Source of the DNA: Candidatus Ozemibacteraceae bacterium
GTDB lineage: Bacteria > Muiribacteriota > Ozemobacteria > Ozemobacterales > Ozemobacteraceae
Direction of reading: 5' to 3'
Assembly: GCA_017998915.1 (NCBI GenBank)
Contig: JAGOCE010000004.1
Coordinates: forward strand, 1-34,772
DNA: 34,772 nt
A model generated the notes under the pieces. It did not search any database and was not told the DNA's origin. It saw nothing but the letters and a program-made list of their open reading frames with translations. A program made the translations under genes and the position numbers. How positions within the stretch are numbered: the stretch's first letter is position 1; every line of letters begins with the position of its first letter. Shown here in pieces: positions 10,872 to 13,481 of the stretch.

Positions 10872-13481
10872 ATGATACGCACGTTATCGCTCATGATGAT
10901 GTTGGTCACGCTCGCGCTCGCAACGGTTCCCGCCACGGCGCTGCACCTGTATGGCCCGCAGGGGCAGCTCCCCATGCTCGAACAGCGCATCAAGGTGACA
11001 ATCGACAACCAGGTCGCCGTCACGAAGCTGGAACAGAGCTTCATCAACACGTCCGACGTCACCCAGGAGACAAGCTATCGGTTTCCGCTGAACGAAAAGG
11101 CGTCGGTTCAGGAGTTCGGCCTGACCGGCCCGAACGGCATTCGGCAGGTCGGCGCCATCGAAGAAAAACAGGATGCTCAGCAGATCTACCAGAACGCGCA
11201 GAACGCCGGCATGGTACCGGCAATGGCGCAGCAGGCCGATCCGAACAGTTTCGAGACGAAGGTCGGCGCCGTTCCCGCCGGCGGCAGGACAAAGATCGAT
11301 CTGACCTACAGCGAACTGCTCGATTATTCGAATGGTATCATTGCATATAATATACCAATGAATATTTCAAGCATCCAGCAGCGGAATCTCGACCTGGTCT
11401 CGGTCGTGATCGACATCCGTGATCAGAAGAAGATCGTCAGCGTCAAGACCCCCTCGCATCCCGCCCAGGCGCGGCGCATCGACGACAACCACTGGCAGGT
11501 GACGTTCGAGCGGTCGAAGGAGCTGCCGGCGGCCGATTTCCAGATACAGTATGAAGTCACGGCCCAGAGGATGGGCTTCAACTTCCTGTCGACCCAGCCC
11601 GACAAAGACGACAAGGGCTTCTTCATGATGATGCTCGCCCCCCAGGAAGTCGTCGACGCCGGCGACATCGTGGCCCGCGACATCGTATTCGTGCTCGACG
11701 TGTCGGGCAGCATGAGCGGCTACAAGATCAAGCAGACGAAGGCCGCCTACAACTTTTTCATCGACCATCTGAACGCCGATGACCGGTTCAACGTGATCTC
11801 CTTCTCTGATACGGCGACCGTCTGGAAAGACACGCTCGTCAGTGCCGACTCCTCGAACAGGGCCGACGCCAAGCGGTTCGTGTCGGACCTCGACACCTCG
11901 GGCGGAACGAATATCGATGAGGCCCTGCGGTCTGCCGTCAACCTGTTCGGAACGACCAAATCCACGAAAGCCATCGTGTTTCTCACCGACGGCGAGCCCA
12001 CGGTCGGCATCACAAATCCCAACGCCATCGCCACGAACATGAAGGGCCGGAACATCGCCGGCATACGCACTTTCACCCTCGGCGTGGGCGAGAACGTCTC
12101 CACGCAGCTTCTCGACCAGCTCGCCATCGAGAACCGTGGTGAAGCACTGTATGTGCATGAGAACGACACGCTCGAAGCGAAGCTGACGGGATTTTACGAA
12201 ACGATCAGCAAGCCACTGCTTGTGGACCTCGGCATCGACTGGGGCGGCATCAAGGTGTCGGAGCTGTATCCCAAGACGATTCCGAACATCTACAAGGGCT
12301 CCCAGGTCGTCATCGTCGGCCGGTATGAGGGAAGCGGCGTTGCGAGCCTGACCCTGCAAGGCACGCTCAACGGCTCCCCGCAGAGCTACCCCGTTTCCGC
12401 CGAGTTCGTGAAGAATACCGATGCCAATAAATTCGTCGCCCGCGTCTGGGCAAAGACCAAGGCCGACGACCTCATCAGGGAAATGCGCGCCTACGGAGAA
12501 AATACAGAGAAGAAGGCCGAAGTGATCCGGCTCAGCAAGACATACCAGTTCACCACCAGCTACACCTCGTTCGTCTCAGTTTCTCCCGAGCAGGTCGCCG
12601 CCGCGAAACCCGCCCACCAGAATTGGCAGCAGCAACAGCGGGCAAACACCTGGAACCATCATACCCGGGTCACGCCGTCTCAGGCACCGGCACCGGTTTC
12701 GATGCCCAGCTATGCAGCCTCCCCGGTCATGCCTCCTCAGGCGGGACAGGCCCGGCCGACCGTCACGGTCGTCTCGCGCCAGGAGGCCAAGCCGATCGGC
12801 ACATGGGGCGTATCGGGCTTCTTCCCGGCCGCGGTGCTCGTGCCCAATTTCCGGAAAGCCCGCGAGCAGGCTCGCGAAAAGGCGTGCTACGCCAACATGC
12901 GCGTGCTCCTCGGAGCCGTCGAGATGTATAACATGGATCAACCTTCGATGCTCCGCATGATCGATGACCAGGTCATCGACGGACTCCAGCAGTCCAATTA
13001 TCTGAAGGGCGGTATCAATAGACCCGAGTCAGGCTGTGCCTACCTGAGTTCCGGCGACATCACGAGCGGCGGCGTCATCTACTGTGCCCTGCATGGAACC
13101 ATCGAGCCCTCGAACATCGCAAACCTGAACTTCAAATACCAGGACAGCACCCCCTGGGAGACCAAGCTGTGGAACAACGTCCTGCAGCCCATCGTCAGCC
13201 TCGCCATCAATATCCCGATCTTCCTCATCGGCCTGTGGCTCACCTGGAAGATCATCACCCTCCCCTTCGTGTTTCTGAAACTCATCATCTACGGCCCCGA
13301 CGCGGAAGAGCCGGTCACGGAACCCACCTCCTGCATCCCGATCACTCACACCGAGCCGGTGAACGCCGAGGCACTTGATTCTGAACCCGTTTCCGGCCAT
13401 GATGGGAATACCGGGGAAACGCCCTGGGAATTGTCTGAAATCGAAGACCGTGATCCCGACGAGGGAGAGAAGAAGGAATGA
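10872..13481 (+). CDS. VIT-VWA protein with internal pilin-like domain, 869 aa
   Basis: A strong GAGGAGGG site precedes the ATG. Order: signal peptide 1-23; VIT domain about 25-150; linker; VWA domain about 268-440 with a complete metal-ion site (D276-x-S278-x-S280, T346, D373); a beta-rich region to about 585; a Gln/Pro/Ala linker; a pilin-like block at about 645-740 ([20 protein letters not shown], then [10 protein letters not shown]); a hydrophobic region about 767-808; and an acidic tail. VIT plus VWA is the inter-alpha-trypsin-inhibitor architecture of secreted or surface adhesion proteins. The pilin-like block matches the latter part of a type IV pilin helix and its continuation, but has no cleavable leader or Glu+5. 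It could let the protein pack against a pilus or pseudopilus. Driven by the sigma-54 promoter; followed after 32 bases by a membrane protein. Confidence 0.88.
   Translation: [869 protein letters not shown]

Follow-up and report, generated by a model that had tools for sequence, protein, structure and literature searches.

What is a segment of type IV pilin doing inside a VIT-VWA protein? Pilins are known as filament subunits, and effector domains carried by polymerising pilins were reportedly described in 2021. The gene considered here lies in a window of 34,772 nt, i.e., the whole stretch of Ozemobacteraceae DNA that was analysed. A sequence-only reading of that window had claimed that the gene product joins VIT and VWA domains to a pilin-like block, that the block cannot be processed as a pilin, and that it may dock the protein onto a pilus or pseudopilus.

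The pilin head and its VIT-VWA carrier

The gene occupies 10872..13481, exactly as first read, and encodes a protein of 869 aa with 11 full-length orthologues (41–58% identity). The gene, the parts of its product listed below, and the next gene downstream are on the + strand. The parts of the protein are arranged as follows. An N-terminal hydrophobic stretch, kept in position in all orthologues, marks a signal peptide (residues 1–24; 10872..10943). The VIT domain (residues 37–146; 10980..11309) matches PF08487 with 86.6 bits (1.6e-24), and the VWA domain (residues 270–432; 11679..12167) matches PF00092 with 81.8 bits (9.3e-23), both above the Pfam cut-offs. The MIDAS residues D276, S278, S280, T346, and D373 are invariant across 12 orthologues, so that the metal site was rightly called intact. 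In a full-length AlphaFold2 model (mean pLDDT 73.9), the VIT-VWA part matches human ITIH1, inter-alpha-inhibitor heavy chain 1 (6fpy, E 6e-42). A Pro/Gln/Ala-rich linker follows (residues 576–637; 12597..12782), predicted to be disordered, with pLDDT near 30. Next come a short lead-in and the pilin-like block, discussed below, and then a conserved C-terminal membrane helix (residues 765–808; 13164..13295), predicted from hydropathy and modelled as a long helix at residues 762–807; this is the hydrophobic region of the sequence-only reading. The acidic C-terminal tail (residues 809–869; 13296..13478) is indeed present in the window’s protein, but it is shared with a single orthologue (L068) and poorly conserved, most orthologues stopping shortly past the membrane helix.

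All 12 aligned orthologues keep this domain order. Mean pairwise identity is highest in the first part of the block, α1-C (84%); the VWA domain reaches 54%, the head’s C-terminal half 43%, and the linker 26%. Of 40 genomes searched, 15 have the architecture, all of them Ozemobacteraceae (Ca. Riflebacteria). A contig scan places the module in Candidatus Riflebacteria/Ozemobacteraceae; the few records labelled otherwise are probably mislabelled. One genome with an orthologue of the chimera encodes, in addition, a second type of VIT-VWA protein bearing this head (L137), and a more distant VIT-VWA version (L142) belongs to another family of the phylum.

Judged by its sequence, the block (residues 658–743; 12843..13100) is the head of a type IV pilin, i.e., α1-C plus the globular part. 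It contains three Cys (672, 722, and 738). A 117-residue prepilin encoded on another contig of the same genome (C451) matches the block at 66% identity over 90 aa (E=6e-38) and has the Cys and core sequence in common with it. This prepilin has a strong prepilin motif (TIGR02532, 40.5 bits) and is the best of 76 prepilin-motif matches in the genome (PF07963, E<=0.01), a number that suggests dozens of prepilin or pseudopilin operons. Its gene sits directly downstream of pilT (TIGR01420, 488.7 bits) in a pilB-pilT-prepilin-pilD cluster that includes a PilB-type ATPase (T2SSE), with a prepilin peptidase (PF06750) beside the prepilin. In most relatives, prepilin and PilB-type ATPase likewise lie only a few kb apart.

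An HMM based solely on the stand-alone prepilins found in other genomes reaches 126 bits on the block from residue 658 onward, and the best of 10,000 shuffles reaches 12.6. Chance resemblance or a mis-assembled gene, conceivable in that the source is a fragmented MAG of 515 contigs, is refuted by this margin and by independent orthologues in many MAGs, and retains a negligible probability. Thus, the reading of the protein as a VIT-VWA/pilin fusion was sound: by family it belongs with the VIT-VWA proteins, and its head is pilin-derived, although the protein is not a pilin.

General databases recognize the head poorly. Pfam and PHROGs yield no pilin family match to the block, a search of a phage collection yields no match, and NCBIfam yields weak, sub-threshold ComGC and GspG matches. 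The best outside family is the ComGC-type NF040999 (20.9 bits, well under its cut-off of 75), which 15 of 17 module copies match. A PDB sequence search returns GspG (5wda) only at E 0.05. Modelled alone (77 sequences), the block gives a helix, a short helix, and a β-hairpin with a pLDDT of 85.8. The hairpin is a predicted difference from ComGC heads, which are purely helical (PMC7212644). The structural check proposed with the sequence-only reading thus comes out only partly in favour: the model has helices and a hairpin, but Foldseek with the block finds no significant PDB match, the pilins 8uhf and 6t8s appearing only at E about 10 (TMq 0.44–0.46). The fold is very small for such a search, and the assignment therefore depends on sequence homology.

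What sets the chimera apart from the C451 pilin is the absence of everything upstream of the head, which is embedded in a VIT-VWA protein instead. Here and in all orthologues the block has no prepilin leader (the class III signal peptide with Gly-1) and no Glu+5. The hydrophobic α1-N is also absent: the 25 residues ahead of the block have a mean hydropathy of 0.46, compared with 1.82 in the prepilin, and hydropathy indicates no membrane segment there. Where a pilin would have leader and α1-N, the orthologues have K..SLWGAxGFxPxAxxVPNF. The lead-in K..SLWGAxGFxPxAxxV (residues 638–657; 12783..12842; 59% mean pairwise identity) is too weakly hydrophobic to span a membrane, and the C-terminal helix is the predicted anchor. 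With leader, Glu+5, and α1-N gone, the head should be neither cleavable by prepilin peptidase nor polymerisable, a conclusion drawn from established pilin biology and in line with the earlier proposal that the block keeps the conserved surface but cannot be processed as a pilin.

Correlated evolution and genomic neighbours

In the 15 genomes having both, the head of the VIT-VWA protein (V) was compared with the stand-alone prepilin (P). V and P are 64.8% identical within a genome versus 56.2% between different genomes (permutation p=5e-5); V compared with the V of other genomes averages 58.3%, below its identity to its own P. The effect persists after removal of row, column, and GC effects. 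Among seven genus-level groups, own P is the best match for six, and the true pairing ranks first among all 5040 permutations (exact p=0.0002). The preference exists between genera only, with none further within genera, i.e., among sister species. VIT-VWA paralogues of the same genomes, used as a control, show no such effect (0.324 vs. 0.325, p=0.55), whereas V and P in the nine control genomes still give p=5e-5.

The tracking can be followed to single sites. V and P have matching states in 15/15 genomes at residues 665 (E/Q), 676 (M/Q/I), and 718 (P/A), and in 14/15 genomes at residue 709 (Q/K/G/N). The large fusion protein of these genomes, which also carries the head, often departs from the V/P states at these four positions, and V tracks P more than this fusion does (+8.6 vs. 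+3.2 points).

Gene conversion between V and P was considered as the source of the correlation. At shared residues, V uses the same codon as its own P in 48.0% of cases and as P of other genomes of similar GC in 46.1%; a separate count gives 355 codon matches against 330 expected. Because the codon match is hardly above that of similar-GC genomes, there is no sign of recent conversion; an older event whose synonymous sites have since become saturated may have occurred. Repeated independent grafting of pilin heads was also considered. In a poorly resolved head tree, some V group with P of the same genus (support 98/89 and 94/86), which is suggestive, but an AU test leaves a single origin of the VIT-VWA heads unrejected (p=0.22).

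The co-change of V and P suggests that the VWA protein and the pilus subunit work together. That V tracks the major pilin of its genus is therefore indirect support for docking on a pilus, and to that extent the docking proposal stands. The partner named with it probably does not. The minor-prepilin operon at the left end of the window (98–3838), which includes prepilin-type genes at 2745–3308 and 3233–3838, was put forward as the local source of partners. BLASTP of its minor prepilins against the block gives no match and their heads are unrelated; the counterpart is the pilT-linked prepilin on C451.

The conserved genomic partner is instead the next gene downstream (13514..14644). Its product belongs to no known family; it has two to four membrane helices ahead of a C-terminal region that is long and rich in helix. 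It has no Pfam match, and NCBIfam gives a weak, sub-threshold match to V-type ATP synthase subunit E. A homologue is present in all 15 genomes with the chimera and in 0/25 genomes without it, a count over 40 related genomes that should not be read as 40 independent observations. The gene lies directly 3′ of the chimera in 11 of 12 loci, with one gene between them in L088.

The rest of the neighbourhood is of several kinds. The gene at 14759–15955 encodes a dCache-HAMP protein that stops after HAMP, without an output domain, and homologues are found near the chimera in two other loci (L063 and L065). The region 15919–18747 encodes a 942-aa protein in which many membrane helices precede HEAT repeats. 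A putative transposase ORF (21449–22579) reads as ISAs1-type.

Pilin heads across the phylum and the proposed role of the chimera

The head is not confined to VIT-VWA proteins. The module is present in 39/40 genomes at 1–48 copies each, including 9 in the window’s genome, and T2SSE-family ATPases are present in 40/40. About a quarter of 79 module loci are stand-alone prepilins and the remainder are fusions. The latter include 14 VIT-VWA orthologues, proteins of ~1850 aa with a pilin in mid-protein, zinc ribbons joined to a membrane helix and a head, signal peptides joined to a further domain of no assigned kind and a head, and proteins with multiple degenerate heads. Hydropathy would place the head outside the cytoplasm in nearly all architectures; in the class typified by L098 and L123, a hydrophobic stretch ahead of the head makes the placement ambiguous.

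Several of these architectures have features of their own. The ~1850-aa proteins (L066, L074, L078, L079, L084, L086, L090, L100–L102, L106, and, in the window’s genome, L015 on contig C429) carry a full prepilin segment in mid-protein after an upstream membrane helix, mostly GFRLAELMIVVAIIG..., with Gly-1 and Glu+5 intact. Prepilin peptidase might therefore cut there and free a pilin from a huge precursor. In L069, L077, and L099 the site is decayed; L066 has no Pfam match. Zinc-ribbon, membrane-helix, and head proteins comprise L016 (C285), L085, L104, L115, L116, L120, L122, and L129. Two such genes stand in tandem in the window’s genome, adjoining a gene for a membrane protein, and L122 keeps the full prepilin motif behind its zinc ribbon. 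L019 (C226), L132, and L123 are large and exported, and each contains two or three degenerate heads in its interior. The maximum of 48 copies is reached in each of two genomes of a rumen-type genus (G014 and G018).

For the chimera we suggest, giving the proposal about an even chance, that an inner-membrane VIT-VWA receptor uses a non-polymerising pilin head to dock the pilus or the pilin pool. The model would work as follows. The product would be exported by Sec and held in the inner membrane by its C-terminal helix, a topology predicted from hydropathy. The VIT-VWA part would lie outside the cytoplasm, with the grafted major-pilin head just above the membrane. The head would most likely offer the type IV pilus system a surface to dock on, contacting either membrane pilins that are not yet assembled or the filament base; its match to the local major pilin suggests such recognition of subunits or filament base. 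Docking would connect pili with a metal-binding, integrin-like VWA receptor. The VWA domain itself may bind a surface or some ligand. Examples are known of VWA domains that work together with type IV or Tad pili when cells adhere or sense a surface (PMC8179133, PMC8806160, PMC12607857), which makes a role in sensing or adhesion plausible here. The product of 13514..14644 would be a likely cytoplasm-facing partner and could relay or anchor there. Against docking, the chimera gene is not linked to any pilus cluster, the tracking is between genera and not sister species, the correlation could stem from old conversion, the AU test does not require more than one origin, and the distant version L142 has no partner gene.

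The same head in so many unrelated fusions may also be a generic extracytoplasmic domain, and this is the strongest competitor, though a clearly less probable one. On that account a domesticated head, serving as a stable spacer or cap, was spread by duplication and recombination, makes no pilus contact, and owes its likeness to pilins to occasional conversion. The breadth and copy number of the architectures fit this, as do the degenerate multiple copies within L019 and L132 and one identical V-P run of 35 nt in CALLCO. Conversion is poorly reflected in codon identity, however (0.480 vs. 0.461 in similar-GC genomes), and V follows P more closely than does the large fusion, the lock-step sites being specific to V and P.

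Docking could alternatively be regulatory. A membrane-held, non-polymerising copy of the major subunit, evolving in lock-step with that subunit, might act as a decoy or chaperone on pilins or on the assembly platform, with the VWA domain sensing an external cue. Many other head fusions in the genome should then interfere too, and we regard such an assembly regulator as improbable.

Less probable by far is a tip adhesin, i.e., a minor pilin that displays the VIT-VWA part from within the filament. The building blocks are those of modular pilins such as PilB of Streptococcus sanguinis (PMC8179133) and CpaL of Caulobacter (PMC12607857), which are linked to adhesion or surface sensing and likewise combine a pilin module with a MIDAS-bearing VWA in one polypeptide. 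In PilB and CpaL, however, the pilin is N-terminal and has a class III leader and α1-N, the VWA is C-terminal, and the proteins are placed at the pilus tip. In the chimera the order is reversed, a VIT domain is present, and in all orthologues the head lacks those assembly elements and Glu+5 and is C-terminal, followed by the membrane anchor. These differences strongly disfavour incorporation into a filament.

Relation to known systems and significance

Other known proteins share parts with the chimera. ITIH-type proteins, including the marine proteobacterial sortase targets of TIGR03788, have the VIT-VWA unit in common with it but lack its C-terminus of pilin head, membrane helix, and acidic tail; the chimera scores 292.4 bits against TIGR03788, below the cut-off of 551.65. 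Some PilY1/PilC tip adhesins have a VWA domain and act with type IV pili (PMC8179133, PMC8806160). The chimera differs from these in that the pilin head itself is fused, and Pfam finds no PilY1 β-propeller in it. A PNAS survey of modular pilins demanded an N-terminal prepilin motif and would therefore have missed leaderless, C-terminal heads. Our literature search found no description of pilin-head fusions in Riflebacteria, in agreement with the initial statement that the chimera is not a described system.

The arrangement is the reverse of that in modular pilins. That is, a head without its assembly helix is grafted onto other proteins, on the scale of a phylum. More tentatively, we propose that the Riflebacteria pilin head may be a general “compatibility tag”: non-polymerising copies on many unrelated exported or membrane proteins, among them a VIT-VWA receptor whose membrane partner is obligate, would match the lineage’s own pilin, and the pilus system would be a hub on which they dock head-to-head. 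This extension is doubtful at present. Should the head indeed serve for docking, it would represent a new way of attaching receptors to type IV pilus machinery, and the co-varying residues would predict the interface. It would also offer a way into a phylum that has been highlighted as a hub for unknown gene families (PMC10849945).
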